This document shows, piece after piece, positions 6,949 to 23,230 of a stretch of DNA of 64,000 nt. Location of the stretch: NCBI RefSeq assembly GCF_003970925.1, contig NZ_RWJF01000001.1:124001-188000 (forward strand). The letters are read 5' to 3'. Position numbers and translations under genes: made by a program. The notes under the pieces are model-generated. The model had not been told where the DNA came from and did no database searches. It saw nothing but the letters and a program-made list of their open reading frames with translations. The stretch's first letter is position 1; every line of letters starts with the position of its first letter. Origin of the DNA: Sphingomonas ginkgonis. Lineage in GTDB: Bacteria > Pseudomonadota > Alphaproteobacteria > Sphingomonadales > Sphingomonadaceae.

Positions 6949-8343
6949 CTAAATTCCCAGTTCCGCCCTCGCTCGTGCGACCTGCTCGCGCACCCGGACG
7001 GGAGCGGTCCCGCCATAGCTCGTCCGGCTGGCGACGCTCGCCTCGACCGTCAGCACGCCGAACACCCGCTGGTCGATGCGGTCGTCGATCTCGCGCAGTG
7101 TGGCCAGTGGCAGTTCCGGCAGGTCGCAGCCGCGCTCCTCGGCCGCCTTCACCGCTCGGCCGGTAATATGGTGGGCCTCACGGAACGGCACGTTCGCCTC
7201 CCGCACCAGCCAGTCGGCAAGGTCGGTGGCGGTGGAGAAGCCGGTCGCCGCTGCGGCGCGCATCCGCTCTGGCACGAAGGCGCACTCGGCGACCATCCCG
7301 GTCAGCGCCTGCAGGCACAGCATCAAGAGATCGTGCGCCTCAAACACCGGCTCCTTGTCGTCCTGCATGTCCTTGGAATAGGCGAGCGGAAGCCCCTTCA
7401 TCGTGACCATCAGGCTGGTCATGCAGCCCATGATCCGCCCGGTATGCCCGCGCACCAGCTCGGCCGCGTCGGGGTTACGCTTCTGCGGCATGATCGAGCT
7501 GCCGGTCGAGTAGCTGTCGGGCAGGCGGACGAAGCCGAACGGCGCCGAGGCCCAGATGATCAGCTCTTCCGCCAGTCGCGATAAGTGCAGGCTGCACTGG
7601 ACCGCGGCGGTCAGGTAATCGAGCGCGAAGTCGCGGTCCGAAACGCTGTCGAGGCTGTTGGCCGTCGGCCGGTCGAACCCGAGCGCCGCCGTCGTCTTGT
7701 CGCGGTCGAGGGGGAAGCCGGTGCCGGCCAGCGCCGCGCTGCCCAGCGGGCACTCCCCGGCCCGCGCCAGCGCATCGGCGAAGCGCGAGCGGTCGCGCCG
7801 GAGCATCTCGAAATAGGCGAGCATGTGGTGGCCGAGCGTCACGGGTTGCGCGACCTGCAGGTGGGTGAAGCCAGGCATCACCGTGTCGGCGTGCTGCTCG
7901 GCGACCTCGACCAGCACCATCTGGAGGTCGCGGATCGTCTCGCCCGCCGCTTCCAGCGCGCCGCGCACCCACAGCTTGAAGTCGGTCGCCACCTGGTCGT
8001 TGCGCGAGCGGGCGGTATGAAGCCGCCCCGCCGCGGGCCCGATCAGCTCGGCGAGCCTGCTCTCGGTCGCCATGTGGATGTCCTCGAGCGCGAGGTCGTC
8101 GGGCAGGTTGCCGGCGGCATAGTCGCGCTCGATCCGGTTGAGCCCGTCGATGATCTCCCGGGTGTCGTCGGCGGAGAGGATGCCTTGGTCGCCGAGCATC
8201 CGCGCATGGGCCTTCGACCCCGCGATGTCCTCGCGCCACAGCGCCTTGTCGAACGGGAGCGAGGCGTTGATCCGCTGCATGATCCGCGCCGGCTCGGCGG
8301 CGAAGCGGCCACCCCACATCTTGTTCGACTGGTCCTGGGTCAT
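6949..8343 (-). CDS. argH: Argininosuccinate lyase ArgH
   Basis: Last arginine step, releasing fumarate. It has 464 aa. The N terminus [19 protein letters not shown] and the fumarase/aspartase signature [17 protein letters not shown] are clear; the catalytic HxxxD-type region [18 protein letters not shown] is present. Transcribed alone on the minus strand, convergent to argG. Confidence 0.97.
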
Positions 8344-8435
8344 GGGCGGGCTTTGTCATGCACGGAACGCCCCCGCAACCTTCCTCCGTGCTGCCGGTTG
8401 AGCGCGTGCGGATGGGATTGTTGCAAGGAACAGGA

Positions 8436-9410
8436 ATGAACGCCGAACGCGGCACGCTGAAGGCTGCGGTCCAGACCGGACCGGGGCGGATGGACACTCG
8501 CGAACTCGAATTGCCGGAGCCAGGCGCCGGCCAGGTGCGCGTGAAGATCGAAGGCTGCGGCGTTTGCGCCTCCAACCTCACGCCGTGGAGCGGGCCGGAG
8601 TGGATGAGCTTTCCCGGCGAGCCCGGAGGGCTCGGCCACGAGGGCTGGGGCACGATCGAGGCCGTCGGCGAGGGTGTCGACGGGTTCGCCGTCGGCGACC
8701 GCGTGGCCGCCCTCTCCTACCACAGCTATGCCAGCCACGACCTGGCCGACGCCGACAAGATCGTGAAACTTCCGCCCGAGCTCGCCGGCCAGCCCTTCCC
8801 CGGCGAGCCGCTGGGCTGCGCCTTCAACATCTTTCGCCGCGCCGACATCCACGCCGGGCAGACCGTCGCCATCGTCGGCATCGGCTTTCTCGGCGCGATC
8901 CTGACCCGGCTGGCGACCGACGCCGGCGCACGGGTGATCGCCATCTCGCGGCGCCCCTTCTCGCTCGACGTCGCGCGGCAGTTCGGCGCGGCCGAGACGA
9001 TCCCGATGGAGGACCATCACGGGATCATCGAACGGGTGAAACAATTGACCGCCGGCAAGTTTTGCGCGCGCGTCATCGAGGCGGTCGGCAAGCAGTGGCC
9101 GCTCGATCTCGCCGCCGAGATCACCGCCGAGCGCGGCAAGCTGATCGTCGCCGGCTACCACCAGGACGGGCCGCGCCAGGTCAACATGTGGCTGTGGAAT
9201 TGGCGCGGCATCGACGTGATCAACGCCCACGAACGTGATCCTCAGGCCTATGTCGAGGGCATCCGCGAGGCGGTCGACGCCGTCGCAAGCGGTCGGCTCG
9301 ACCCCTCCCCGCTCTACACCCACAGCTACCGGCTGGAGGAATTGGGGCAGGCGCTCAACGACACCCGCGACCGCCCCGACGGCTTCCTCAAGGCGATCGT
9401 TCGCCCATGA
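8436..9410 (+). CDS. Zinc-type medium-chain alcohol dehydrogenase
   Basis: MDR-superfamily NAD(P)-dependent oxidoreductase of 324 aa. The catalytic zinc ligands are seen in EGCGVCASNL and GLGHEGWGTIEAVGEG, and the Rossmann motif is VAIVGIGFLGAIL. The structural-zinc cysteine cluster is missing. Start ATG 8436 is chosen because GCAAGGAACAGGA lies just before it; the longer frame reaching back to 8358 has no such site. Joined to the next gene by ATGA. Its place in the inositol/glycan cluster suggests oxidation of a sugar or cyclitol hydroxyl, but the substrate cannot be read from sequence. Confidence 0.85.
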   Translation: MNAERGTLKAAVQTGPGRMDTRELELPEPGAGQVRVKIEGCGVCASNLTPWSGPEWMSFPGEPGGLGHEGWGTIEAVGEGVDGFAVGDRVAALSYHSYASHDLADADKIVKLPPELAGQPFPGEPLGCAFNIFRRADIHAGQTVAIVGIGFLGAILTRLATDAGARVIAISRRPFSLDVARQFGAAETIPMEDHHGIIERVKQLTAGKFCARVIEAVGKQWPLDLAAEITAERGKLIVAGYHQDGPRQVNMWLWNWRGIDVINAHERDPQAYVEGIREAVDAVASGRLDPSPLYTHSYRLEELGQALNDTRDRPDGFLKAIVRP

Positions 9411-10399
9411 CGGCCAAGCCGCAGCTCGGCTTTCTCGGCACCGGCTGGATCGGCCGCCACCGGATGGAGGCGATGCTCGCGACCGGCGCGATCGAGGCGG
9501 TCGCAGTCGCCGAGCCCGACGACGAGAGCCGCGCCGCGGCGATCGGACTGGCGCCGGCCGCCATGCCGCTCGAGACCATCGACGAGCTGCTCGCGCAGGA
9601 TCTCGACGGGATCGTCATCGCCAGCCCCAGCGCGCTTCACGCCGAGCAGTCGATCCGTGCGCTCGAGAAAGGGTTCGCGGTGTTCTGCCAGAAGCCGCTC
9701 GGCCGCAGCGCGGACGAGGTGCGTGGCGTGGTCGAGGCGGCTAGGACGGCGGACAAGCTGCTCGGGGTCGACCTCAGCTATCGCCACACGGCCGGCATGC
9801 AGGCGATCCATCCGCTGCTGCAGGGCGGCGAGCTGGGGCGGATCTTCGCCGCCGACCTCGTCTTCCACAATGCCTATGGGCCGGACAAGCCGTGGTTCTA
9901 CGACCCCGCCCAGTCGGGCGGCGGCTGCGTGATGGATCTCGGTGTCCACCTGGTTGACCTCGCGCTGTGGGCGTTGGACTGGCCCGAGGTCATCGACGTC
10001 CAATCGCACCTGTTTGCCGACGGCGAGCCTCTGCGCGACCCGGCCGCACGCTGCGAGGATTATGCGGTCGCGACCATCACGCTGGCCGGGGGCGCGGTCA
10101 TCCGGCTGGGCTGCTCGTGGCGGCTGCAGGCGGGGGTCGAGGCGGTAATCGGCGCGGACTTCTACGGAACGCAGGGCGGCGCGTCGCTTCGCAACGAGGC
10201 GGGGAGCTTTTACGACTTCACCGCCCACCGTCTCGCCGGCACCCAGTCCAGCCCGCTTGCCGGGCTGGAGAGCGACTGGGGCGGCCGGGCGGCGACGGAC
10301 TGGGCCCGGCGCCTTGCGGCCGGAGAAGGCTTTGCGGCTGAGGTGGAGCGACTAGTCGACGTGTCCGGCGTGCTCGACCGCATCTACCGCCGCGACTAG
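9407..10399 (+). CDS. Gfo/Idh/MocA family oxidoreductase
   Basis: A 330-aa NAD(P)-dependent sugar or inositol dehydrogenase-type protein. The N-terminal nucleotide fold is GFLGTGWIGRHRMEAML; the family EKP motif appears as CQKPLG, with Glu replaced by Gln, while the catalytic Lys is kept. The C-terminal domain has GGGCVMDLGVHLVDLALWAL, giving the conserved His. The family includes inositol 2-dehydrogenases, so acting on the product of the nearby inositol-phosphate synthase is attractive but unproven. Its last 48 bp overlap tail-to-tail with the minus-strand gene ending at 10352. Confidence 0.88.
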   Translation: MTAKPQLGFLGTGWIGRHRMEAMLATGAIEAVAVAEPDDESRAAAIGLAPAAMPLETIDELLAQDLDGIVIASPSALHAEQSIRALEKGFAVFCQKPLGRSADEVRGVVEAARTADKLLGVDLSYRHTAGMQAIHPLLQGGELGRIFAADLVFHNAYGPDKPWFYDPAQSGGGCVMDLGVHLVDLALWALDWPEVIDVQSHLFADGEPLRDPAARCEDYAVATITLAGGAVIRLGCSWRLQAGVEAVIGADFYGTQGGASLRNEAGSFYDFTAHRLAGTQSSPLAGLESDWGGRAATDWARRLAAGEGFAAEVERLVDVSGVLDRIYRRD

Positions 10400-12040
10400 C
10401 GCGTCCAGCTTCGCTTCCATCTCGTCGGCAGCGGCGCGATTGCGGTCGGCTTCGGCCGGCCAGTGGCCGAGCATGTCCGCCGATAGCCGATGCGCGCCGA
10501 TGCGGAAGGCGGCATAGGCGCGGAGCATGAAGTCGAGCAGCGCCGGATCGCTGTTCAACGACCGCGCCAGCCGGGTCGCGTCGTCGCTTGCGAGATCCAG
10601 CTCGAGGATCGCCCCCGCCACGTCCCAGGCGATGTCCTGCGGCCCGACGAGATCGTGCGCGCAGTGGTGGTCGGTGGCATCGGTCTTGAGCAGTTGGCCG
10701 GACGGGACCCGAAGCCACTCGTGCCGCTGCATCCGCCCGTCGATCGCGACCGGACTGACGAGACTGGTCAGTCGCTTGGTGTCCGGCTGCCACTTGCCGA
10801 GCTGGCGCGGCGCGTTGTGGCGGGCCATGACGACGAGCTCATCGAGCGTGGCTCCGCTCGTCGCCGGCAGCGCGGCTCGAACCTGCAGATAGGCGGCGAG
10901 CTCGTCGATCGTCGGGGCCGACGCGACGGCGTCCTCGTGCCAACGCTGCACCAGCCAGCCATAGGCTAGCCCGGCTGTCTCTGCGCCAAAGCCGGCATGG
11001 TGGAGCCGGCGGGCGAGCGCGAGGCGCTGCTCGCCGAGTTTGCCGATCCCGGCGAACCGCACCTGCCATGCGCCATCGGCGGTCCTGACCCGGTACTTGG
11101 TGGCTTCCCACATCGGGTTGATCGCCGGCCAGCCGAACTCGGCCAGGCCGCCCTCCGCCCGCCAGGCGCCTCCCGACAGGTTGACGAGCGGCTCGCGGAG
11201 TTCGCCGACTTGGGAGGTGACCCAAGTGGGCAGCCGTGGGCCGAGCAGCGCATTCGGTTCGATTATCGGCCGCTGCGCCCGCGCCCAGCGCTGACGATGA
11301 CGCTCGCTCGCCTGTGCGCCAAGCGGACCGGCGTGACCGGGAAGGAAGGCAATCCGCTCCTCGGGAACGCCGTGCGACGCCAGCCAGTCCGCCACCGCGC
11401 CAAAGCTGCTGCCGGAGAGGCCGGGCCCCTCGTCGACCACGACATAGTGCGCCACGCCGTCGAGCAGCTTGGCCGACAGTTCGGCGTCGATCCTCAGTTC
11501 GCGGGCGAAGGGATCGCCGCTCGGTCGCAGCGTGGTCGGTCGGTCGGCATCCAGCACCGCAGCGGCCATGCAGGCAAGCCCGGAGCCGATGCTGCGCAGG
11601 CCGATGATCCGCGGCGGAGCGAGCAGTTGGAGCTGTTCGGCGGCGAGCGCATAGGCCTCCGGGTAGAGGACATAGAAGGCATGCCCCTCGGCCAGCCGGA
11701 TCCGAACCTCGTCACCCGGGAAAAGCACCTTTGGCAGCGAGGGTATCGGCACCGCGTCGGCAAAGTCCGATTGCCAGCTGCGGACCAGCGCATGGCCGAG
11801 CGAGACCAGCCCGTCGAGAAGCGCCGCCTCCGTCGGCCGCGCCCGGTCCTCGCCAGCTGCTGCGAAGTCGCGGTCGGCGACACCCTGCGCGAGACCGGCG
11901 AGGCCGATGAACAGTCCTGCTAAGGCTGCATGGCGCTCAAGGCCCGGGCTTAGGCAATTGGCCCGCTCGCGCCGGTCGCGAAGCTCGTCGAGGCGCGCGT
12001 CGGCGGAGACCGTCTCTTCATGGTCTCCGTAGACGAGCAT
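10352..12040 (-). CDS. Two-domain protein: phosphoribosyltransferase-like and kinase-like halves, function unknown
   Basis: 562 aa that I do not recognise as a named family. The first half (about residues 130-260) resembles a PRTase fold: IGLRSIGSGLACMAAAVL, then VVVDEGPGLSGSSFGAVADWL, which recalls the acidic-acidic...G-S-S PRPP loop. The second half (about 300-530) resembles an aminoglycoside/choline-kinase type fold, with LLKTDATDHHCAHDL and VGPQDIAWDVAGAILELDL taking the place of the HxD and D-W metal motifs. The start directly abuts the stop of the decarboxylase gene (TGA then ATG), so it is the last gene of the minus operon. Catalytic activity of either half is inference. Confidence 0.72.
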   Translation of the reverse strand: MLVYGDHEETVSADARLDELRDRRERANCLSPGLERHAALAGLFIGLAGLAQGVADRDFAAAGEDRARPTEAALLDGLVSLGHALVRSWQSDFADAVPIPSLPKVLFPGDEVRIRLAEGHAFYVLYPEAYALAAEQLQLLAPPRIIGLRSIGSGLACMAAAVLDADRPTTLRPSGDPFARELRIDAELSAKLLDGVAHYVVVDEGPGLSGSSFGAVADWLASHGVPEERIAFLPGHAGPLGAQASERHRQRWARAQRPIIEPNALLGPRLPTWVTSQVGELREPLVNLSGGAWRAEGGLAEFGWPAINPMWEATKYRVRTADGAWQVRFAGIGKLGEQRLALARRLHHAGFGAETAGLAYGWLVQRWHEDAVASAPTIDELAAYLQVRAALPATSGATLDELVVMARHNAPRQLGKWQPDTKRLTSLVSPVAIDGRMQRHEWLRVPSGQLLKTDATDHHCAHDLVGPQDIAWDVAGAILELDLASDDATRLARSLNSDPALLDFMLRAYAAFRIGAHRLSADMLGHWPAEADRNRAAADEMEAKLDALVAAVDAVEHAGHVD

Positions 12041-13057
<1,017 letters not shown>

Positions 13058-13074
13058 GCGGTTACTCTCCATGT

Positions 13075-14166
13075 TCATGAAAGGGCGAGGGCGGGACGCG
13101 TCGACCGCACCTGCTCCGAGGATACCAAGAGATCACGTTCCAGTTCCGCGGCCCGATGTCCAGCGGTGTGCGATTCCAGGATGACGTGCCGCGCGGCAAC
13201 ACCCATGTTCCGGCGAGCGGCGTCATCGAGCGCCAGCGCTGCCAGTACATCGTTGGTCCGCCTGGCAAGGATGATCTGCTCGCCTGGCCGGAACAGCTGG
13301 TCGAGCCCTGGCCAGATGTCGGAGATGACCGGCGTCGCGCAGGCGGCGGCTTCGAACAGTCGGACCGAGGGCGACCAGCCAGCGGCGATCATGTCGGCCC
13401 GGGTCACGTTGAGGGTGAGGCGAGAGGCGGCGTAGAAGGCGGGGTGTTCGGCAGGCGGCACATGCTCGATCCGCTCGACATTGGCCGGCCAGTCGATCGT
13501 CGCCGGATACTGCGGACCGGCGACGCAGAAGCGGCGCTCCGGGGCCAGCCGGGCGGCTTCGACCAGCAGCGCGTCGAGGGTCGGCTGGCGATCGTCGCTG
13601 TAGGTGCCGAGATAGGAAAGATCCCAGCGGGGTTCCGCAGGAAGGGGGCGATAAACCTGCTCGTCGACCGAGCAATAGAGCGCACGCGCGGCCGGGGAGC
13701 GGTACTGCTCCTCGAGGAAGCGCAGGGTCGGACCACCGGTAAAGCTGAAATAGACGTCGTAGTTGGGGATCAGCTCGGGCGCGAGATATTCGAAGTCGCC
13801 GCGCGCTAGCTTGGCGAGGGTGACCGGCGTGTCGATGTCGTAGAAGCAGCGGACGCCTTCTGCGGTCTCCTGCACGAACCGCCCGACCGCGACGCCGTCA
13901 GGGACGTAGGAGCCGACCATGACCGCATCGGCATCGCGGATTTCCGCGGTCCAGCGCTTCAGCTCCTCGAGGTCCGAGTAGAAGCGCAGGGTGCAGAAAT
14001 CGGGATCGGGCAGGTCGCGCTGGTTGCGGTACCAGGGCACGTCCCGCTCAAGGAACAGGATATCGTGGCCCCGCTCGGCGAAGGCGCGGAGCAGCGCCCG
14101 GAAGGTGGTGGCGTGGCCGTTGCCCCAGCTGGAGGACAGCGAGAGGCCGAGAACGACGAGCTTCAT
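13075..14166 (-). CDS. CgeB-type glycosyltransferase 1
   Basis: 363 aa of the CgeB/DUF3880-glycosyltransferase 1_2 type, GT-B fold. The N terminus reads LVVLGLSLSSSWGNGHATTF, then ALLRAFAERGHDILFLERD; the donor-side half has WSPSVRLFEAAACATPVISD and GEQIILAR. First of three adjacent paralogues on the minus strand, all overlapping by 4 bp. No membrane segment, so it is probably cytosolic. Acceptor and donor are unknown; the UDP-xylose-type enzyme next to it suggests one donor. Confidence 0.85.
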   Translation of the reverse strand: MKLVVLGLSLSSSWGNGHATTFRALLRAFAERGHDILFLERDVPWYRNQRDLPDPDFCTLRFYSDLEELKRWTAEIRDADAVMVGSYVPDGVAVGRFVQETAEGVRCFYDIDTPVTLAKLARGDFEYLAPELIPNYDVYFSFTGGPTLRFLEEQYRSPAARALYCSVDEQVYRPLPAEPRWDLSYLGTYSDDRQPTLDALLVEAARLAPERRFCVAGPQYPATIDWPANVERIEHVPPAEHPAFYAASRLTLNVTRADMIAAGWSPSVRLFEAAACATPVISDIWPGLDQLFRPGEQIILARRTNDVLAALALDDAARRNMGVAARHVILESHTAGHRAAELERDLLVSSEQVRSTRPALALS

Positions 14167-15257
14167 GCCGCCACCATCTCGCGCTTGGCGGCAAGCTCGC
14201 GGCGCAGGATCGCGTCGACCTGCTCGCCCCTGAGCGCATAGGTATGGTCACGCGACACGCGGCGCAACGCGGCGTCGCCGATGGCCCGCGCACGCTCGGG
14301 GGTGAGCGCCTGGAGGTGTTGGGCGACGTCCTGACCGTCGCGAGCGACCAGCACTTCCTTGTCAGGGGCGAGGAACTGCTCGATCCCCTCCCAGGCGTCG
14401 GTGATCAGGCAGGCCGCCGCACCGGCCGCCTCGAACACCCGAGTGGCGGGCGAGAAGCCGATGTTCGCCATGCTGTCGCGGGCAACGTTGAGCACGGCCA
14501 ACGGCGTGCAGTTGAAGGCATTGTGGTCGGCGGTCCCGACATGGCCGATCCCGCGAACGTTCGCCGGCATCGCCTTGGTCTCCCACCCGTTGCCGCCGAT
14601 CAGGAAGGGGCGGTCGGACAGCAGCGCGGCGGCGCGAAGGAAGAACTCCTCGACGCGGACCTCGCGGTCGGGAAGGCGGTTGGCAAGGAAGTTGAGATCG
14701 GCCTGGAAGCGCGCGTTGGGCGGGACCGGGTGATGGGTCGCCGGGTCGAGCGCGTTGTACACGGGAATGCACTGGCGCGCACCGAAGCCGGTGTAACGCT
14801 CGACGACCGGCGGACCGCCGCCGTAGGTCAGCACCAGGTCGAACTCCGGCAGGCGACGGCGCAGCGGATGGTCGGACTGGCCGGCGATCTCCTCGAGCGT
14901 CGCCGCGGCATCGACGTCCCAGTAGATGCGGAGCGCGCCCGGCGCCGCTTGGTCGAGCACGCCCTCCAGGAGTTCGTCGTCGAACACCCCGACCCCGCTC
15001 GCCTTGACGACGGCATCGGCCTCGCCGGCGCGCGCCAGCACAGCGCGGCAGGCCTCGGGCGTTGCATCCCACACGACCACCTCCGCCCATTCTGGCGGAT
15101 CAATGTCGCGGTGCTGCTGGCGATCGAAGGCGTCGGGCTCGAAGAAGGTGATCCGGTGCCCGCGCCGGGCCAGTTCGCCAAGCACGCCGCGGTAATAGGT
15201 CGCGGCGCCGTTCCAGTAGCTGCTGAGGAGGCTGGAGCCGTAGAAGGCGATGTTCAT
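14163..15257 (-). CDS. CgeB-type glycosyltransferase 2
   Basis: 364 aa, paralogue of the neighbouring genes. The N terminus is MNIAFYGSSLLSSYWNGAAT then YYRGVLGELARRGHRITFFE; the C-terminal half has GFSPATRVFEAAGAAACLI and WEGIEQFLAPDKEVLVARDG. The frame is open far upstream to 16040, but ATG 15257 is taken because it overlaps the preceding stop in ATGA and gives the same N-terminal pattern as the paralogues. Confidence 0.85.
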   Translation of the reverse strand: MNIAFYGSSLLSSYWNGAATYYRGVLGELARRGHRITFFEPDAFDRQQHRDIDPPEWAEVVVWDATPEACRAVLARAGEADAVVKASGVGVFDDELLEGVLDQAAPGALRIYWDVDAAATLEEIAGQSDHPLRRRLPEFDLVLTYGGGPPVVERYTGFGARQCIPVYNALDPATHHPVPPNARFQADLNFLANRLPDREVRVEEFFLRAAALLSDRPFLIGGNGWETKAMPANVRGIGHVGTADHNAFNCTPLAVLNVARDSMANIGFSPATRVFEAAGAAACLITDAWEGIEQFLAPDKEVLVARDGQDVAQHLQALTPERARAIGDAALRRVSRDHTYALRGEQVDAILRRELAAKREMVAA

Positions 15258-16366
15258 GCGGGGACGGGTTCCTTGATCGGGGCGCCGAGTCGCCCGGCGA
15301 TCGCCAGCAGCTCGTCGACGCGGTGCGCGCAGCTGTGGCGCGCGTGGATGGTGGCGAGGCCGTGCGTGACGAGCGACCGGCGCAGGTCTGGGTCGGCGGC
15401 GAGCGCGCGCAGGTGACGCGTCATCTCCGCCCCGTCGCGCGCGACCAGATAGTCCTCGCCCGGCGTGAACAGCTGCTCGCAATCGTCCCACGGCGCGGAG
15501 ACCAGCGGGATGCCGCAGGCCAAGGCCTCGAACACGCGGATGGTCGGAATGCCTGGCAGCAGCGTGGTGTAGAAGCGGCGCGGAACGTGCACCGTCGCGA
15601 GGTGATGCGCGAACACCTCCGGCGCGCGGGCATTGGGCAGCCAGCCGCGGAAGTTCACGCCGTAGCGCTCGAGCGTCGTCAGTGCCTCGGGCGGGTAGCG
15701 GACGCCGAAGATGTCGAGCGGGAGCCCGGCCTCCTGCGCCGGGCGGAACAGGTACTCCTCCAGCTCGGCCGAGCGCTCGCCGTCGCCCCAGTTGCCGATC
15801 CACACCAGTCCGTCGCGGTCGACCGGCTCGGCCGGCGGGTGGAACAGCCGCGTATCGGCCGCCTCGTGCCAGACGAACACCCGACCTTCCCAGCCCCAGC
15901 GCCGATAGACTGCGGCCAGCGTCTCGCCGAACGCCAGCACCCCGTCGTAGCCGCTGAGGTCGAAGGCGCGGATTGCCTGCTCTTCGCTGACCGCCCGGTG
16001 GTGGGTGTCGTGGAACAGGATGGTGAAGGGAGCGCCGCACCGGCGCTGCTCACCGATCGCCGCGACCAGTGCCGGGTCATTCCACTCGTGGACGATGACG
16101 AGGTCGGCGCCGTCGGTCAGCGCGGCGAGATCGGCGTCGGGCTCGAAGCTGCGCGATTCGAGCTCTGGATAAGCATAGCGGTAGGCGTGCAGTCCCTCCG
16201 GCCCATGGTCGGCGAGCAGGTTCTGCAGGCTCCACGCCCCGGCCGGCTCGTAAGCGCGGACGTCGTGCCCGCGGGCGATGAGTTCGCGCAGCACGCCGCG
16301 GAGAAAGTGGGCGTTGCCGTGGTTCCAGCAGCTCGCCAGCGAATGGGTGAAATAGACGACCCTCAT
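15254..16366 (-). CDS. CgeB-type glycosyltransferase 3
   Basis: 370 aa, third paralogue. The N terminus VVYFTHSLASCWNHGNAHFL is followed by RGVLRELIARGHDVRAYEP; the donor half has GIPTIRVFEALACGIPLVSA and GEDYLVARDGAEMTRHL. Compared with copies 1 and 2 it carries a distinct middle with ILFHDTHHRAVSEEQAI. Overlaps its neighbours by 4 bp at both ends. Confidence 0.85.
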   Translation of the reverse strand: MRVVYFTHSLASCWNHGNAHFLRGVLRELIARGHDVRAYEPAGAWSLQNLLADHGPEGLHAYRYAYPELESRSFEPDADLAALTDGADLVIVHEWNDPALVAAIGEQRRCGAPFTILFHDTHHRAVSEEQAIRAFDLSGYDGVLAFGETLAAVYRRWGWEGRVFVWHEAADTRLFHPPAEPVDRDGLVWIGNWGDGERSAELEEYLFRPAQEAGLPLDIFGVRYPPEALTTLERYGVNFRGWLPNARAPEVFAHHLATVHVPRRFYTTLLPGIPTIRVFEALACGIPLVSAPWDDCEQLFTPGEDYLVARDGAEMTRHLRALAADPDLRRSLVTHGLATIHARHSCAHRVDELLAIAGRLGAPIKEPVPA

Positions 16367-17427
16367 GCCGCCACCCGAGCATCGGCGCCGATGACCGAAC
16401 GATAGTGACCGAGCATGGCGGCAGCGGTCGCCCGCGGGGTGAAGCGCGCCGCGCGGGCGCGGGCCGCTGCGCCCAGCCGGTCGCGCTCTTGAGGATCTTG
16501 CAGCAGGCGCTCGGCTGCCTCCGCGAAGGCTGCGGCGTCACAAGCCGGCACGAAGGTCGCGGCGCCGTCCCACAGTTCGCGGAAAACCGGGGTGTCGGCG
16601 AGCAGAAGCGCGCAACCGGCCTGAGCCGCCTCGAGCACCGCCAGCCCGAACGGCTCATAAAGTGCCGCCGAGGCGAAGACTGGGCGAGCCGCGAGCTTCG
16701 CCGCCAGCGCGTCGTCGCTCAGCCGGCCAAGCGCCACGGCATGATCGAGAGTCACCCCGCCGCCATGCGGCTCGCGGAGGCTGCCGGCGGCTTCGAGCGG
16801 CACGGACAGAAAGGCTGCGGCGCGATCGAGGGTCGTGACATTCTTGCCCTCGTCGCCGAGCCGCCCGGCGGTCAGCACCGTGTCGCTGCGAGGAAGCCCG
16901 GACGGCAGCGGCAGCGGCGAGCGGCCGTTGTGAACGACTTGCGGCAGGACGCCGTAGCAGCGCTCGACCGCGGCGGCGAAGGCGTGGCTCGGCGCTACCG
17001 CGAGGATGGAACGGCGCAGTCCCTCGGCGACCAGCGCCGCGCGCCAGGCAAGGTCGACCGGCAGCGGGCCGTCCTTAACCGCTTCCCACCAGCTCGCGAC
17101 GCAGCTGTGGATCAGCGCGACGACCGGGACCGCGAAGTCGGCGCAGGCGAGCGCCGGCGAATGGATTTGCACCAGGTCCGCGCCGCGCTCCCGCGCCAGC
17201 CGGGCGAGGGCAGCGGCGGCATCGCGCACCGCAGCTTCGTCCGCGGCCAGCCAGTCGAGCGGCAGGCCGGTATCGACGAGGGCAAGCGCGGCATGATCGA
17301 GCCCGGCCGGCACCGGACCCATCAGCGCGACGAGGACGTCGACCCCCGCCGCGCCGAGCGCGTCGGCGAGATCGCGGGTATAGGTCCAGACACCGCCCAC
17401 CGCATCCGTGGTGAGGATCAGCCTCAA
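16363..17427 (-). CDS. GT4-type glycosyltransferase (TTG start)
   Basis: 354 aa, GT-B glycosyltransferase. The N terminus RLILTTDAVGGVWTYTRDLA is a typical GT4 beginning with a glycine-rich loop, and SAALYEPFGLAVLEAAQAG is the E-x7-E donor motif. The only sensible start is TTG at 17427, which overlaps the preceding TGA (TTGA); upstream codons belong to the previous gene. The cytosolic enzyme extends a glycan with a nucleotide sugar not identifiable here. Confidence 0.83.
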   Translation of the reverse strand: MRLILTTDAVGGVWTYTRDLADALGAAGVDVLVALMGPVPAGLDHAALALVDTGLPLDWLAADEAAVRDAAAALARLARERGADLVQIHSPALACADFAVPVVALIHSCVASWWEAVKDGPLPVDLAWRAALVAEGLRRSILAVAPSHAFAAAVERCYGVLPQVVHNGRSPLPLPSGLPRSDTVLTAGRLGDEGKNVTTLDRAAAFLSVPLEAAGSLREPHGGGVTLDHAVALGRLSDDALAAKLAARPVFASAALYEPFGLAVLEAAQAGCALLLADTPVFRELWDGAATFVPACDAAAFAEAAERLLQDPQERDRLGAAARARAARFTPRATAAAMLGHYRSVIGADARVAA

Positions 17428-18494
17428 TGCGCCGCCCCGGCCGCCATCGGCTCGCGCGCCCCCAGCGACAGGCCGCGTTCCCCCGCCAGCCACTCGGCCA
17501 GCGCGGTCACGCCCGAGCGCCATTCGACCGGCGCCTTGAGCCCGAGCTCGCGGCGGACCGCGCGCCCATCGGCGACGAAGTAGCGCTGGTCGCCCGCACG
17601 CCAGTCGTCAAAGCGGAGGTCGACCTCGCGCCCGGTCAGCTCGCCGATGAAGCCGATCAGCTCGCGCAGCGACACCGCGTTGCGCGGGCCGCCGCCGAGG
17701 TTGAAGGCTCGCCCGCTAACACGGTCGATGTTGCGCCAGACCGCCATGTAGGTGTCGACCGCGTCCGACACGTCGAGGATGTCGCGGACCTGGCAGCCGT
17801 CGCCATAGAGGGTGATCGTCTCGCCCTCGAGCGCCTTGATGAGGAAGTGCGCGACCCAGCCCTGGTCCTCGGTTCCCATCTGCCGCTCGCCATAGATGCA
17901 GCTCATCCGCAGCACCGCGGTGGGCAGGCCGAAGCTACGGCCATAGTCGAGCACATACTGGTCGGCGGCGCCCTTGGAGCAGCCATAGGGCGTGTGGAAG
18001 TCGAGCGGCCGGGTCTCGCCGATGCCATGGTCGCGGACGGCCGGATCGACCGGGGAGTAGCGCTCGTCCTCGAGCCTCAGGTCGACATCGGCAAGATCAC
18101 CGTAGACCTTGTTGGTCGAAGCGAAGATCAGCGGCACGCGCCGGCCGCCGGTGCGCAGCGCATCGAGCAGGTTGAGCGTGCCGAGGATGTTGACCGAGAA
18201 ATCATCGCGCGGGTCGACCAGCGAAGTCGTGACGGCGACCTGCGCGGCCATGTGGAAGACGGCGGACGCCTCTTTGGCCGCGGCGACCACCGAGTCCTCG
18301 TCGCGGATGTCGGCGACGACGCTGCTAATCCGCTCGGGATGGCGACTGGTCAGCCAGGCGAGGTTGCGTTCGACCCCGGCGCGGGCGAGCGCGTCGTAGA
18401 CCAGCACGTCATGGCCCTCGCCGGCGAGCCGGTCGGCGATGTTGCAGCCGATGAAGCCTGCCCCGCCGGTGACGAGGATCGGCCGGCGGCTCAC
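17424..18494 (-). CDS. NAD-dependent sugar epimerase, CDP-paratose 2-epimerase-like
   Basis: 356 aa, extended SDR. ILVTGGAGFIGCNIADRLAG and ARAGVERNLAWL are close to the TyvE pattern, as are PYGCSKGAADQYVLDYGRSF with the Tyr-x3-Lys pair and GTEDQGWVAHFLIKALEG. A 2- or 4-epimerase of an NDP-sugar is likely; the exact sugar is not readable. The start is GTG 18494, overlapping the upstream stop as GTGA. Sits in the middle of the minus operon. Confidence 0.82.
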   Translation of the reverse strand: MSRRPILVTGGAGFIGCNIADRLAGEGHDVLVYDALARAGVERNLAWLTSRHPERISSVVADIRDEDSVVAAAKEASAVFHMAAQVAVTTSLVDPRDDFSVNILGTLNLLDALRTGGRRVPLIFASTNKVYGDLADVDLRLEDERYSPVDPAVRDHGIGETRPLDFHTPYGCSKGAADQYVLDYGRSFGLPTAVLRMSCIYGERQMGTEDQGWVAHFLIKALEGETITLYGDGCQVRDILDVSDAVDTYMAVWRNIDRVSGRAFNLGGGPRNAVSLRELIGFIGELTGREVDLRFDDWRAGDQRYFVADGRAVRRELGLKAPVEWRSGVTALAEWLAGERGLSLGAREPMAAGAAH

Positions 18495-19606
18495 GCCACC
18501 AGTCCCCGCTTCTCGAGCTCGGCGCGGGCCTGATCGACCCTGTCGACCGCCTCCTCCTCGGCGACCCAGCCGGCCAGCTCGGCGAGCCCTTCCTGGAAGT
18601 CGCGCTCCGCCCTGAAGCCGAGCCGATCGGCCGCGAGGCTCCCGTCGCAGAAGCAGTGGCGGATGTCGCCCACCCGGGTCTTGCCGACCACTTCCGGTTC
18701 GATGTCGTTGCGGTTCATCGCCGCGCCGAGCGAGCGGGCGACTTCGGTGACCGAGCGATCGTGGCCGGAGCCGATATTGAACACGCCGCCGACCGCCTCG
18801 GGCTTCTCCAGCGCGTCGGCGAAGGCGCGGGCGACGTCGCCGACATAGACGAAGTCGCGGCGCTGCTCGCCGTCCTCGAAGACCATCGGCTTCTGCCCGT
18901 TGAGCAGCCGCGACGCGAAGATCGCCAGCACGCCGGTATAGGGATTGGATAGCGCCTGCCCGGGGCCGTAGACGTTGAACAGGCGGAGGCAGACCCCTTC
19001 CATGCCGTAGGCCTCGGCCATGATCATGGTCGTTCGCTCCTGCACGAACTTGTTGAGCGCGTAGATCGAGGCGAGCGCCGGCTGCTTCCATTCCGGCGTC
19101 GGCACCGGGCTGAGCGGCCGACCCTGGTCGTCGAGCGGCTCCCAGCTCTGGCTCTCCGACCGGCGCGGCTGGCGGATGGCGTTCTCGACCAGCTTGCCGT
19201 CGACGTCGCGGTACAGCCCCTCCCCGTAGATGCTCATGGAGGAGGCGGTGACGATCCGCCGCACCGGGCGCTCGATCAGCTTTTCGGTGAGCACCGCGGT
19301 GCCGACGTCGTTGACGCTGGTGTAACGTTCGACCGCATACATCGACTGGCCGACCCCGACTTCGGCGGCGAGATGGATCACGCTGTCGACGCCGTCGAGC
19401 GCCTTCGTCACCGCGTCGCCGTTCCGGACGTCTGCGCGGATCAGCTCGGCCTCGCGGTTCAGCGCGGCGGGCCGCTCGGTGTCGCCGTGGACCTGCTCGA
19501 TCAGACTGTCGAGAACCCGGACCTTGTGGCCCCTGCGAAGCAGCTCCTCGGTCACAAATCGGCCGATGAAGCCGGCACCGCCCGTGATCAGAACCGTCTC
19601 GCCCAA
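18491..19606 (-). CDS. NAD-dependent epimerase/dehydratase (extended SDR)
   Basis: 371 aa from TTG 19606. ETVLITGGAGFIGRFVTEEL gives the NAD site; the catalytic region is TASSMSIYGEG and SIYALNKFVQERTTMIMAEA with Tyr-x3-Lys; LRLFNVYGPGQALSNPYTG follows. I choose TTG because GGGGAGCAAGGA lies just upstream and the fold starts there; an in-frame ATG near 19693 would add about 29 residues without family character. First gene of the seven-gene minus operon, divergent from the phosphatase gene. Confidence 0.8.
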   Translation of the reverse strand: MGETVLITGGAGFIGRFVTEELLRRGHKVRVLDSLIEQVHGDTERPAALNREAELIRADVRNGDAVTKALDGVDSVIHLAAEVGVGQSMYAVERYTSVNDVGTAVLTEKLIERPVRRIVTASSMSIYGEGLYRDVDGKLVENAIRQPRRSESQSWEPLDDQGRPLSPVPTPEWKQPALASIYALNKFVQERTTMIMAEAYGMEGVCLRLFNVYGPGQALSNPYTGVLAIFASRLLNGQKPMVFEDGEQRRDFVYVGDVARAFADALEKPEAVGGVFNIGSGHDRSVTEVARSLGAAMNRNDIEPEVVGKTRVGDIRHCFCDGSLAADRLGFRAERDFQEGLAELAGWVAEEEAVDRVDQARAELEKRGLVA

Positions 19607-19809
19607 TATCCTTGCTCCCCACCGGAACGACGCGGCACCGGAACAATCCGACCGCGAAATGAATTGTTCGTCTGTCCAATGAAGCTTGTTCATCTTTGTT
19701 CCCGGGGGCGCGACCCTTGCCGGGCAAGCCAGCCGTTTTCTTTTGCTACCGGCATGAGGGAACAAAGCTTCGTGGAGCGCTGTTGAGGGGCCGAAACAAG
19801 GGGAGCCCG
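19607..19809. promoter_or_regulatory. Divergent promoter region of the glycan cluster
   Basis: 203 bp between the SDR gene (minus) and the phosphatase gene (plus). It holds ACCGGAAC twice (19621 and 19637) and TTGTTC three times (near 19664, 19690 and 19698), the latter partly complementary to the GAACAA at 19641. These repeats could be operator half-sites. I see no convincing -35/-10 pair. Confidence 0.4.
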
Positions 19810-20409
19810 TTGACAGCGTCCGTTCTACTTATCCGTCACGCCGCGCATGGCGACCTGGGCGAGCGCCTGTCGGGACGCGGTCCGGCGCCGGGTCTGACGG
19901 AGACCGGACGCGGGCAGGCCTTGGCGATGGCGACAATGCTCCGGGACGAGCCGATTGCCGCGCTTCACGCGAGCCCGCGGGCGCGCGCGCTGGAAACGGC
20001 GGCCGCGCTGGCCGACGCGGCTGGCCTCGAGTTCGACACGGTCGCCGCCCTCGACGAGGTGGATTTCGGCGCCTGGACGGGCTGCCGCTACGAAGAACTG
20101 GATGGACAGCCCGATTGGGACCGCTGGAACGCCGAGCGGGCGTCGGCGCGGACGCCGGGCGGCGAGTCGATGGCGGAAGCGGCCGACCGGGCGCTCGACC
20201 ATGTTCGCGACACCGCGCGGAGCCACCCGGGGCAGACAGTCGCGATGGTCAGCCACTGCGACGTAATCCGCGGCGTGCTGGCCCGAGCGATGGGCCTGAG
20301 CCTGGACAAGATCCTCAACTTCGACGTCGACCCCGCCTCGGTCAGCCGACTGGCGGTCGGCGACTGGGGCGAGCGGGTCGTCAGCATCAACGAACGGGCC
20401 GCCGCATGA
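19810..20409 (+). CDS. Histidine phosphatase (phosphoglycerate mutase-like), TTG start
   Basis: 199 aa of the RHG branch: SVLLIRHAAHGDLGERL has the phospho-accepting His after Arg, SPRARALETA the second Arg, and VAMVSHCDVIRGVLARAMG the second catalytic His. The substrate is open; inositol phosphate or a sugar phosphate from the neighbouring pathway is a plausible guess. The start is TTG 19810, preceded by AAGGGGAG at proper distance. Ends in ATGA overlap with the methyltransferase. Confidence 0.85.
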   Translation: MTASVLLIRHAAHGDLGERLSGRGPAPGLTETGRGQALAMATMLRDEPIAALHASPRARALETAAALADAAGLEFDTVAALDEVDFGAWTGCRYEELDGQPDWDRWNAERASARTPGGESMAEAADRALDHVRDTARSHPGQTVAMVSHCDVIRGVLARAMGLSLDKILNFDVDPASVSRLAVGDWGERVVSINERAAA

Positions 20410-21194
20410 ACGCCACCCTCGCCAGCCCCGCCGCGGACCGCGACGGGCTGAAGAAGCGAGTGGAGGAGCTCGGACCCTGGTTCCACAATCTCGAGCTCGA
20501 CGGCGTGCAGACGGCGCCGGAGCATTTCCTGCCCGACTATCCGCGCTCGAAGTTCCGCCGGTTCGAGCGGCTGCTGCCGGCCGATCTCACGGGCAAGAGC
20601 GTGCTCGACATCGGCTGCAACGCGGGCTTCTACAGCTTCGAGATGAAGCGGCGCGGCGCGGCCCGCGTGCTCGGCATCGATCATGACCCGCGCTATCTCG
20701 AGCAGGCCCGCTTCGCCGCCGGCGTTCTCGGCTTCGACGACGTCGAGTTCCGTCCGGGCGAGGTATGGGACGTAGGCGCGCTCAGCGAGCGGTTTGATCT
20801 CGTCGTGTTCATGGGCGTCCTTTATCACCTGCGCCATCCGCTGCTCGCGCTGGACCTGATCCGCGAGCATGTCGCCGACGACATGCTCCTCTATCAGTCG
20901 CTGACGGCCGGTTCGCGCGAGGTCGTGCAGCCGGAGCCCGACTATGAGTTCCACGAGGGAGTGGAGGCGCTGACCGGCGAGGGCTGGCCGGCCATGTACT
21001 TCGTCGAACACCGCCTCGCCCGCGATCCCACCAACTGGTGGGTGCCCAACATGGCCTGCAACGGTGCGATGCTCCGTTCCGCCGGCTTCGAGCCCGTCGG
21101 CCAAGCCGACGAGGACGTTTTCTTCTGCCGCCTCGCCGACCACTCGGTCGCGCACGGCGGCGCCGTCTATCCCGCGAAAGGACCGGCCGCTTGA
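20406..21194 (+). CDS. SAM-dependent methyltransferase, CmoB-like
   Basis: 262 aa, class I methyltransferase. The SAM site is KSVLDIGCNAGFYSFEMKRR with acidic loop GIDHDPRYLEQA. The front LGPWFHNLELDGVQTAPEHF and VVFMGVLYHLRHPLLALDLI resemble the tRNA-uridine carboxymethylating CmoB group, but here it sits among sugar genes. I believe it matches a named family seen in similar inositol clusters (Rta_06860 type), which a model search should confirm. The acceptor is unknown. Confidence 0.83.
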   Translation: MNATLASPAADRDGLKKRVEELGPWFHNLELDGVQTAPEHFLPDYPRSKFRRFERLLPADLTGKSVLDIGCNAGFYSFEMKRRGAARVLGIDHDPRYLEQARFAAGVLGFDDVEFRPGEVWDVGALSERFDLVVFMGVLYHLRHPLLALDLIREHVADDMLLYQSLTAGSREVVQPEPDYEFHEGVEALTGEGWPAMYFVEHRLARDPTNWWVPNMACNGAMLRSAGFEPVGQADEDVFFCRLADHSVAHGGAVYPAKGPAA

Positions 21195-22108
21195 TCGAAG
21201 CCGCGATGATCTGGAACGAACCCAACAACAAGTCGCATTGGGATCCGGAGGTCGACCCCGACTGGTCGAAGTTCGCGCAGATGGGCATCCTTGCAGCGGA
21301 GGCGATCCATGCCGCCAATCCGGCGGTCAAGCGCGTGCTCGGCGGCATCTCGCCGATTGATCCGAGCTTCATCCAGCGGCTGCAGGGTCATGGGCTGATC
21401 GATCATCTCGACGTGATCGCGATGCACGGCTTTCCGCTTGACTGGAACCTGTGGAACATCAACGAATGGCCGGCCAAGGTCGACGAGATCCGCGCCGTCG
21501 TGCCGAACCACGAGCTGTGGGTCAGCGAGGTCGGGGTCGGATCGTTCGGTGCCGAGGAGGTGCAGGAGTTCGGGGTCAAGCGCACCGCCGAGCTGCTGAT
21601 CGGCAAGGTGCCGAGGATCTTCTGGTATTCGCTCTACGATCTGCCGCGCGAGTGGGAGGCGACTACCCGCCACAAGGAGGCGGAAGGCTCGAGCTACTAC
21701 CGCCATTTCCACATGGGGCTGCTCGACCAGTCGGGGCGGCCGAAGCTCGGGCTCGAGGCATTCCGCCCTCATGCCGCCGAGCTGGGCCTGATGCAGTGGT
21801 TCCACTTCGAGGACCACCGGCTCGACGAGGCGGTGCGCTGGCTCAAGGAGCTGGGCGTGACCCGGCTGCGTACCGGCCTGAGCTGGGCCGACCGTTTCCG
21901 CCCCGGCGCGCTCGACTGGTTCGACCGGCAGATGGAGGCACTCGAGCCGTTCGAGGTGACGGCCACCTTCTGCTTCACCCCGGAGCATCTCGGGATCGAG
22001 CCGCACCACACCAGCGCGCCGAGGGACCCGCAGATGTTCGCGGATTTCTGCGCCGAGATGATCGAGCGCTATGCGCCGGCGGAGTCCGCCGCGATCGCCG
22101 CCGAGTAA
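21191..22108 (+). CDS. Glycoside hydrolase-like protein with apparently permuted TIM barrel
   Basis: 305 aa from TTG 21191 (TTGA overlap with the previous stop; ATG 21206 is an alternative). The protein begins almost at once with the clan GH-A acid/base motif MIWNEPNNKSHW (residues 6-17), has the nucleophile-type strand HELWVSEVGVGSF near 110 and WYSLYDLPREWE near 145. The segment DEAVRWLKELGVTRLRTGLS and TATFCFTPEHLGIEPHH, which normally precede WNEPN, come last (about 210-300). It resembles GH39-type xylosidases in reversed block order. No signal peptide, so it should be cytosolic. Confidence 0.72.
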   Translation: MIEAAMIWNEPNNKSHWDPEVDPDWSKFAQMGILAAEAIHAANPAVKRVLGGISPIDPSFIQRLQGHGLIDHLDVIAMHGFPLDWNLWNINEWPAKVDEIRAVVPNHELWVSEVGVGSFGAEEVQEFGVKRTAELLIGKVPRIFWYSLYDLPREWEATTRHKEAEGSSYYRHFHMGLLDQSGRPKLGLEAFRPHAAELGLMQWFHFEDHRLDEAVRWLKELGVTRLRTGLSWADRFRPGALDWFDRQMEALEPFEVTATFCFTPEHLGIEPHHTSAPRDPQMFADFCAEMIERYAPAESAAIAAE

Positions 22109-22120
22109 GGACGAGTAGCC

Positions 22121-23230
22121 ATGGATTCGACGATCAACATCGCCATTGCCGGGGTCGGCAACTGCACGTCCAGCCTGGTCCAGGGCATCGCCTACTACCA
22201 GAACGGCGGGGCGAACGAGCAGATCGGGCTGATGCACTGGGATCTCGGCGGCTACCGTCCGAGCGACATCAAGGTGGTCGCCGCCTGGGACGTCGACAGC
22301 CGCAAGGTCGGCAAGGATGTCGCCGAGGCCATCTTCGCCGAGCCCAACTGCACCGAGGTCTTCTGCGCACATGTGAAGCCGACCGGCGCCATCGTTCAGA
22401 TGGGCAAGCGGCTGGACGGGGTGGCCGAGCACATGGCCGACTACCCGGCCGAGCGCAGCTTCATGCTTGCGGACGGGGCGGAGCCGAGCCAGGAGGAGGT
22501 TGTCCGCGCGCTCAAGGAAAGCGGCGCGCATGTGCTGATGAACTATCTTCCCGTCGGCAGCCAGGAAGCGACCGAGTTCTACGCCGAGTGCGCGCTCGAG
22601 GCCGGCGTTGCCTTCGTCAACTGCATCCCCGTCTTCATCGGCAGCGATCCCGCCTGGGCCAAGCGGTTCGAGGAGCGCGGCATCCCGGTGATCGGCGACG
22701 ACATCAAGGCGCAGCTCGGCGCGACCATCGTCCACCGAGTGCTGACCGACCTGTTCGCCAAGCGCGGCGTGCGGCTCGACCGGACCTACCAGCTCAACAC
22801 CGGCGGCAACACCGACTTCCTCAACATGCTCGAGCGCAAGCGGCTCAAGAGCAAGAAGGAGAGCAAGACGGAGGCGGTCCAGTCGGTCACCGACCGCCGG
22901 CTCGACGACGAGAACATCCATGTCGGACCGTCCGACTATGTGCCGTGGCAGAAGGACAACAAGCTCTGCTTCCTGCGCATGGAAGGGCGGATGTTCGGCA
23001 ATGTCCCGCTCAATCTCGAGCTGCGCCTGTCGGTCGAGGATTCGCCCAACAGCGCCGGGGTGGCAATCGACATGATCCGCTGCGCCAAGCTGGCGCTCGA
23101 CCGCGGGCTGGGCGGGGTGGTCGAGGCACCCGCTGCCTTCTTCTGCAAGCACCCGCCCAGGCAGATGACCGATGACGAGGCGCTCCGCGCGACCGAGGAG
23201 TTCATCCACGAAGGTCCGCTGGTCCATTGA
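22121..23230 (+). CDS. ino1: Inositol-3-phosphate synthase
   Basis: 369 aa; cyclises glucose-6-phosphate to myo-inositol phosphate with NAD. NIAIAGVGNCTSSLVQGI is the NAD site, MNYLPVGSQEATEFYAE, PVFIGSDPAWAKRFEERGIP and GDDIKAQLGATIVHRVLTDL follow, and QLNTGGNTDFLNMLERKR is the family hallmark. It is of the short bacterial/actinobacterial type. AAGGACGAG precedes the ATG. Last gene of the plus operon; it ties the whole cluster to inositol metabolism. Confidence 0.96.
   Translation: MDSTINIAIAGVGNCTSSLVQGIAYYQNGGANEQIGLMHWDLGGYRPSDIKVVAAWDVDSRKVGKDVAEAIFAEPNCTEVFCAHVKPTGAIVQMGKRLDGVAEHMADYPAERSFMLADGAEPSQEEVVRALKESGAHVLMNYLPVGSQEATEFYAECALEAGVAFVNCIPVFIGSDPAWAKRFEERGIPVIGDDIKAQLGATIVHRVLTDLFAKRGVRLDRTYQLNTGGNTDFLNMLERKRLKSKKESKTEAVQSVTDRRLDDENIHVGPSDYVPWQKDNKLCFLRMEGRMFGNVPLNLELRLSVEDSPNSAGVAIDMIRCAKLALDRGLGGVVEAPAAFFCKHPPRQMTDDEALRATEEFIHEGPLVH

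Follow-up and report, generated by a model that had tools for sequence, protein, structure and literature searches.

The fourteen-gene putative glycoside cluster of Sphingomonas ginkgonis and the two exclusive modules of its relatives

Fourteen genes lie with almost no spacing at positions 8436-23230 of the window studied here, a stretch of 64,000 nucleotides of Sphingomonas ginkgonis (contig NZ_RWJF01000001.1), and they raise the question of whether they serve a single pathway and what such a pathway would make. A previous interpretation, the sequence-only reading, had proposed one pathway leading to an intracellular, xylose-bearing, methylated inositol glycoside or inositol-primed glycan. 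In this study the cluster was compared with its relatives in other genomes and on plasmids. We estimate at roughly 60% the probability that it is a version, free of radical S-adenosylmethionine (SAM) enzymes, of a cytosolic pathway for a small methylated, probably xylose-containing glycoside, a pathway that is widespread, linked to the general stress response and probably subject to horizontal transfer. We also lean slightly towards the view that a zinc-type dehydrogenase and a Gfo/Idh dehydrogenase take the place of a cobalamin (B12) radical-SAM enzyme at one obligatory step, with at least five exchanges and with nearly every host holding exactly one of the two chemistries, and that the same pathway carries a circularly permuted glycosidase, the un-permuted form of which occurs as a fusion with a nucleoside diphosphate (NDP)-sugar epimerase.

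The cluster and its conservation as one unit

Open reading frames of the window showed the cluster in full, and all fourteen genes were found, broadly with the families named for them in the sequence-only reading. They form three tightly packed transcription units, as follows (SDR, short-chain dehydrogenase/reductase; MDR, medium-chain dehydrogenase/reductase; TD, two-domain protein).

8436..9410, plus strand: MDR zinc-type dehydrogenase, 324 amino acids (PF08240/PF00107)
9407..10399, plus strand: Gfo/Idh/MocA dehydrogenase, 330 amino acids (PF01408, PF22725)
10352..12040, minus strand: TD, fold without assignment, 562 amino acids (no Pfam or NCBIfam match)
12041..13078, minus strand: SDR1, predicted UDP-glucuronate decarboxylase (UDP-xylose synthase; human UXS1 2b69, 3e-99)
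13075..14166, minus strand: CgeB-type glycosyltransferase 1, CgeB1 (PF13524, 2e-37)
14163..15257, minus strand: CgeB-type glycosyltransferase 2, CgeB2 (PF13524, 3e-35)
15254..16366, minus strand: CgeB-type glycosyltransferase 3, CgeB3 (PF13524, 2e-37)
16363..17427, minus strand: GT4 glycosyltransferase, TTG start (PF13439/PF00534)
17424..18494, minus strand: SDR2, CDP-tyvelose 2-epimerase-like, GTG start (9rl0, 1e-79; 1orr, 1e-75)
18491..19606, minus strand: SDR3, GalE-like epimerase carrying an insertion, first gene of the minus-strand operon, TTG start (PF01370; 6wjb, 6e-40)
19759..19784, plus strand: EcfG-like promoter GGAACAAAGCTTCGTGGAGCGCTGTT, 51 bases 5' of the histidine phosphatase start
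19810..20409, plus strand: histidine phosphatase, branch 1, TTG start (PF00300, His_Phos_1, 2e-45)
20406..21194, plus strand: TIGR04290 family methyltransferase (Methyltransf_9; 348.8 bits, cut-off 300)
21191..22108, plus strand: circularly permuted PslG-like (beta/alpha)8 glycosidase, TTG start (presumed catalytic pair E10, E113)
22121..23230, plus strand: inositol-3-phosphate synthase, INO1 (PF01658; Mycobacterium tuberculosis Ino1 1gr0, 4e-124)

The first unit (MDR, Gfo/Idh) is read on the plus strand, the second on the minus strand in the order SDR3, SDR2, GT4, CgeB3, CgeB2, CgeB1, SDR1, TD, and the third on the plus strand in the order histidine phosphatase, methyltransferase, glycosidase-like gene, INO1, with a divergent gap at 19607-19809. 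Five of the gene starts chosen are TTG or GTG, and with this choice there are 4-base overlaps at nine of the eleven junctions between genes on the same strand. The host genome comprises 3.2 Mb in 2 contigs, and the named relatives returned by the protein search were Sphingomonas/Sphingomicrobium.

All fourteen genes are kept, with order and orientation, in four of six same-genus loci at 47-87% identity; of the two remaining congener loci, one is rearranged and without the phosphatase and the other is cut by a contig end. TD was present in 7 of 61 related genomes, and TIGR04290 passed its cut-off in the identical seven. TIGR04290 was found in 16 of 385 genomes of the class, and the cluster is therefore patchy. 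A scan of named genomes gave at least 593 stretches, at least 571 of them with methyltransferase relatives, of which the best 80, ranked by methyltransferase similarity and hence leaning to close relatives, were kept. Both 10-kb flanks were available for 59 of these 80, where the following per-gene counts are lower bounds except that of CgeB1, which also counts a fourth CgeB paralogue (identity about 42-51%): CgeB1 52, CgeB2 43, CgeB3 43, GT4 40, SDR2 40, SDR3 39, glycosidase-like gene 55, INO1 48, histidine phosphatase 46, Gfo/Idh 22, MDR 21, SDR1 20 and TD 12. The genes are thus linked in relatives rather than scattered, which supports a conserved unit and the single pathway that had been proposed.

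The full core block was found in Alphaproteobacteria and also at five loci from Acidobacteria (L089, L094, L103, L104, L123; no GT4 was detected within the core block of L104), while contigs of Verrucomicrobia and Gemmatimonadota held only methyltransferase, glycosidase-like, phosphatase or CgeB pieces. The methyltransferase was also present on 133 of 72,556 plasmid records, including 66 of Sinorhizobium, 35 of Rhizobium and 10 of Roseomonas. The block from SDR2 to the methyltransferase lies on pSymB of Sinorhizobium meliloti 1021 (242509-249807), and another copy of the cluster on p42b of Rhizobium etli CFN 42 (L151), both model symbionts. Overall, the pathway occurs widely among Alphaproteobacteria and extends to Acidobacteria. 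No study of the TIGR04290/TIGR04295 system, and no product, mutant or enzyme activity of it, was found in the literature searched, the correct S. meliloti gene names lying outside that search.

Some further features of the related loci must be noted. A second module surrounds the methyltransferase with varying members, namely a nucleotidyltransferase (23 loci), the fourth CgeB, a GT4 (19), a GNAT protein (17), another methyltransferase (15) and a PIG-L deacetylase (9); its hosts are Mesorhizobium and various others (L069, L077, L096, L099, L100, L111, L115, L116, L130, L133 and more). In genome G006 (L033) the glycosidase-like gene (7660-8672) and SDR3 (12018-13129) are each split over two frames, and they were left as found.

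Radical-SAM and dehydrogenase modules

Many relatives have, between SDR2 and GT4, a 1.3-kb gene that matches TIGR04295, 'B12_rSAM_oligo' (701 and 720 bits, cut-off 400), whose relatives include the methylases HpnR and PhpK and, besides them, AprD4 and BchE. A profile search of the whole genome of our host gave no TIGR04295 match. Within the class, this family was found in 13 of 385 genomes, all of them inside the 16 with TIGR04290. Among the 63 loci with SDR2 and GT4 in view, a count that keeps three pairs of duplicate loci, the radical-SAM gene was present in 22, and none of these 22 showed MDR, Gfo/Idh or TD; at least one of the three was found in 34 of the 41 other loci. After duplicates had been taken out, loci from plasmids included and the thresholds tightened, 70 loci were divided into 24 with the radical-SAM gene only, 33 with MDR/Gfo only, none with both and 13 with neither within the stretch. 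For 11 of these 13, which include all seven blanks of the 63-locus count, whole-genome searches located a Gfo/Idh orthologue outside the fetched stretch; the other two are L033, in which MDR is cut by the stretch end, and L034, which reaches a contig end.

The same pattern was observed when whole genomes were searched. In 61 cluster genomes chosen by hand (14 genomes of the class and 47 of the 80 named loci, for the most part loci in which both SDR2 and GT4 could be seen), TIGR04295 alone was found in 26, Gfo/Idh alone in 34, both in none and neither in one, G197, which is 83% complete. Eleven hand-chosen plasmid loci were split 4 to 7 between the radical-SAM and the dehydrogenase type, none having both, and one of them, L159, shows MDR only. 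RU11, a pSymB relative of the S. meliloti 1021 copy, belongs to the dehydrogenase type. TD stands outside the exclusion pattern. In a tree of SDR2 and CgeB1-3 from 60 loci, built by a quick method under LG+G4, the type changes seven times, at least five of them on starred branches. An either/or pair of this kind narrows the step to a chemistry that would be feasible both for a B12 radical-SAM enzyme and for two dehydrogenases.

Additional genes were seen around these modules. Of 101 loci, 12 encode a polysaccharide pyruvyltransferase; an FrhB/FdhB-type protein is encoded in 13 loci, and such genes adjoin MDR/Gfo/Idh or lie one gene off in nine (L029, L090, L107, L119, L121, L124, L125, L128, L135). 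A plasmid of Roseomonas mucosa from a human-source isolate (L152) carries a dehydrogenase-type cluster with insertion sequence elements on both sides.

The permuted barrel, the promoters and the other families

The protein that had been called glycosidase-like can be placed more precisely, as a circularly permuted PslG-type barrel. Its match to GH39 is sub-threshold (E 0.096), and no other Pfam or NCBIfam match was obtained. As found, the match to PslG consists of two swapped pieces (31.8 bits), residues 3-185 corresponding to PslG 132-319 and residues 202-295, a piece weak by itself, to PslG 26-129; the re-ordered sequence aligned with PslG 26-319 in a single piece (53.0 bits, 3e-13). Structure prediction gave a barrel of eight strands (predicted local distance difference test, 85.5; predicted template modelling score, 0.87) in permuted rather than canonical strand order, in which E10 follows strand 1 and E113 lies on strand 4. 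Both glutamates are invariant in 25 rows, and three strands apart they are presumed to be the acid/base and the nucleophile. In L052, L056 and L063 SDR2 carries at its N-terminus a fused domain of canonical order, 28-35% identical; the fused protein of R. etli is RHE_RS22270. Among the 77 loci with SDR2, 60 have only the permuted form, 8 only the fused canonical form, none both and 9 neither, several of the latter being cut at stretch ends. Five of the eight fused forms belong to the radical-SAM type and three to the dehydrogenase type; the exchange of barrels and that of the radical-SAM and dehydrogenase modules are therefore separate. The occurrence of both barrel topologies in one pathway is a natural case open to direct comparison.

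Potential promoters were sought within 280 bases of the gene starts with the pattern GGAAC-N15-18-[CGT]GTT, which we take to be the EcfG (general stress) consensus. The pattern ended at first in [CG]GTT and was then widened to take in the site of the window, on which the counts from the wider pattern therefore depend in part. These counts are SDR3 25/67, INO1 20/73, histidine phosphatase 16/70, methyltransferase 12/103 and MDR 4/35; they are GT4 1/67, SDR1 1/59, CgeB1 4/91 and CgeB2 3/91, with no site before SDR2 (0/72), CgeB3 (0/70), the glycosidase-like gene (0/84), Gfo/Idh (0/34), the radical-SAM gene (0/26) or TD (0/22). Markov controls gave an average below 1 and a maximum of 4. With the narrow [CG]GTT pattern the counts were SDR3 15/67, INO1 18/73 and histidine phosphatase 6/39, against SDR1 0/59, Gfo/Idh 0/34, MDR 2/35 and CgeB2 2/91. 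At least one site precedes SDR3, INO1 or the histidine phosphatase in 49 of 91 loci. The window's own site, at -51 from the histidine phosphatase, is kept in L029-L032 at -48 to -53, with GGAACAAAGCTT and CTGTT fixed. As sequence patterns, these promoters point to a putative role in stress protection. Near some plasmid copies there are manganese catalase, ferritin-like and sigma/anti-sigma genes, which fit a stress role.

Conserved residues were read from alignments of relatives with 29 to 101 rows per gene, and active-site residues are kept in Gfo/Idh, MDR, INO1, SDR1, SDR2, the phosphatase and the methyltransferase. In MDR, which scores far under the NCBIfam cut-offs (82.7 of 450 bits for IolM), C44, H68-E69 and C128 are invariant (29 rows) and are presumably of the catalytic-zinc type; in Gfo/Idh, K96 and H181 are invariant (29 rows). 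SDR1 is clearly UXS-like, as had been suggested, with 3e-99 against 8e-48 for the next family in a profile search of the PDB and an invariant active-site YDEGKR (39 rows), and UDP-glucuronate decarboxylation is its predicted activity. In the host genome, two genes that pass the cut-off for NDP-sugar dehydrogenases are candidates for supplying the UDP-glucuronate precursor. The likeness of SDR2 to CDP-paratose epimerases was also borne out. It is clearly Tyv-like, being closest to Tyv among solved SDRs (1e-79 vs 6e-33), with STNKVYG and YGCSKG invariant or nearly so (67 rows), and CDP-paratose is a possible substrate. The assignment of SDR3 stops at GalE-like. GT4 matched four PDB entries (two PimA, one MshA, one Tll1590); these matches are weak (5e-8 to 2e-7) and cover the donor half. 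The histidine phosphatase scored 137.6 bits against the MSMEG_4193 family (cut-off 203.85), and INO1 446.3 bits against the mycothiol INO1 family TIGR03450 (cut-off 638). The methyltransferase has an intact SAM-type motif, and its former description as CmoB-like gives way to the dedicated family TIGR04290, whose curated cut-off it passes.

TD gave no Pfam or NCBIfam match and only chance-level matches in the PDB profile search. Its residues D203, E204, G205, P206, G207, S209, G210 and S212 are invariant in 47 sequences, and in its N part a DEGPGLSGSS loop resembles the phosphoribosyltransferase motif. Of 68 cluster genomes, 25 carry TD and 8 (G006, G008, G030, G447, G448, G451, G458, G467) encode a DSP-type phosphatase. 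All eight are TD-positive, and the phosphatase gene adjoins TD in seven; its loci are L033 (9550-10155), L034, L071, L105, L029, L074 and L087, the first four being without the histidine phosphatase. Its position beside TD suggests a phosphate-handling side branch for TD.

By eye, the flanking genes appear to be argG, argH and trpD, which would place the cluster between argH and trpD. Elsewhere in the window (39651-41498, plus strand) a chorismate-mutase type II domain is fused to a class-II DAHP synthase, with chorismate synthase and shikimate dehydrogenase genes nearby downstream.

Proposed pathway, rival explanations and known systems

In the pathway that we propose, SDR1 would make UDP-xylose from UDP-glucuronate, and SDR2 and SDR3 would provide two further epimerised NDP-sugars. 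From these, GT4 and the CgeB trio might assemble an oligosaccharide of three to five units, often on or together with inositol, which INO1 and the phosphatase would supply in many lineages, and the TIGR04290 enzyme would methylate the glycoside. A redox rearrangement at one carbon of a sugar or cyclitol, for example an epimerisation via a ketone, would be an obligatory step, carried out here by MDR and Gfo/Idh and in other lineages by the B12 radical-SAM enzyme. The barrel may trim or transfer glycosyl units in step with SDR2, its fusion partner in some relatives.

Several points weigh against this proposal. The starred branches of the tree offer five independent pairs, all opposite, so that the sign test reaches 0.0625 and p<0.05 is out of reach; in addition, the type labels on those branches were set by us from locus and genome searches, Gfo/Idh not being seen in L034, where the contig ends. 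With regard to stress, 42 of 91 loci are without a head site, and these promoter counts carry no correction for relatedness. In the window only the histidine phosphatase operon has a site, none preceding SDR3 or INO1, and the narrow pattern is absent before MDR. INO1 and the histidine phosphatase were absent from the fetched stretch, the extent of that search, in all eight fused-type loci. Finally, the exclusive pair could yield two different end products instead of serving one step. In such a case, which we consider unlikely, radical-SAM clusters would add or rearrange carbon, for instance by C-methylation, and dehydrogenase clusters would oxidise or epimerise another position, giving related but different glycosides with one module per scaffold. 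B12-domain radical-SAM proteins are often methylases, HpnR and PhpK are among the relatives of TIGR04295, and the two modules occupy different positions in the cluster; against this, exactly one of the two is present in 60 of the 61 chosen genomes, and the core genes were kept through at least five switches.

An inositol-primed glycan or inositol glycoside, in which GT4 would act on inositol phosphate in the manner of MshA or PimA, with the phosphatase acting later, is possible, although the balance is somewhat against it. INO1 is present in 52 of 57 permuted-type loci (duplicates removed), with an adjoining phosphatase in many; three of the four GT4 matches are inositol glycosyltransferases, and the DSP-type phosphatase is found in four of the nine INO1 loci without the histidine phosphatase. 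However, the GT4 matches are the weak, donor-half ones described above, INO1 and the MDR/Gfo relatives remain under the cut-offs of named inositol families, and neither INO1 nor the phosphatase was seen in the fetched stretch of the eight fused-type loci. The inositol primer may therefore not be general, and the inositol-primed product of the sequence-only reading is not supported as it was worded. As to INO1 elsewhere, the fetched stretch of R. etli p42b (L151) is without INO1 and histidine phosphatase and has a metallophosphoesterase and a nucleotidyltransferase nearby (7344-8883), and in two congeners INO1 lies outside the cluster (G016, which has no cluster, and G007, as a second copy). 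It is rather improbable that the genes carry out the cytosolic steps for an O-antigen, capsule or exopolysaccharide of the cell surface, with flippase and polymerase elsewhere. PslG comes from an exopolysaccharide cluster (PMC9075953). The pyruvyltransferase genes (12 of 101 loci, nine adjoining MDR/Gfo/Idh or one gene off), the location of rhizobial copies on large replicons such as pSymB and an MdoH gene near one copy point the same way. But the fourteen genes include no initiating glycosyltransferase, Wzx, Wzy, Wzz or exporter, none is named in nine annotated plasmid copies, whose gene table is incomplete, and the glycosyltransferases are soluble, each of the fourteen proteins having at most one hydrophobic segment; the sequence-only reading was right about the soluble glycosyltransferases and about the lack of Wzy, Wzz and export genes inside the cluster. 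The MdoH gene belongs, with protein G, to the glucan-biosynthesis genes that lie a few kb from a radical-SAM-type cluster on an Azospirillum argentinense plasmid (L161, 18888-22411). Mycobacterial methylmannose polysaccharide is made with glycosyltransferases, a methyltransferase and a trimming hydrolase. By analogy, an intracellular methylated polysaccharide would agree with the soluble glycosyltransferases, dedicated methyltransferase and cytosolic hydrolase that share this cluster; it nevertheless seems quite unlikely, since three dissimilar CgeB glycosyltransferases suggest a defined oligosaccharide over a homopolymer.

With respect to known systems, INO1, the phosphatase and GT4 have relatives in the mycothiol pathway (Ino1, the MSMEG_4193-type phosphatase, which we take to be linked to mycothiol, and MshA), but all are under the family cut-offs and the fourteen genes include none of the MshB, MshC or MshD type. 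The inositol dehydrogenases IolG and IolM are the best NCBIfam relative of Gfo/Idh and the second best of MDR, at scores under their cut-offs (86 of 355 bits for IolG, with that of IolM given above). PslG, the Psl cluster's endoglycosidase and presumably labelled GH39, is matched over its whole domain by the re-ordered window barrel, which also has WNEPN and SEVG/TEVG, the two motifs of the catalytic glutamates; unlike PslG, this barrel is circularly permuted, starts at the acid/base strand, has no signal peptide by reading and lies outside a Psl-type export cluster. The closest likeness is to the TIGR04290/TIGR04295 system, presumably the 'rhizo-twelve system' of an NCBIfam label: the window methyltransferase passes the same cut-off and the SDR-GT4-CgeB block is that of the radical-SAM loci, whereas the window genome is without TIGR04295 and carries MDR, Gfo/Idh and TD. 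This system is already recognised by two NCBIfam models, and the window holds a variant of it and not a separate kind.

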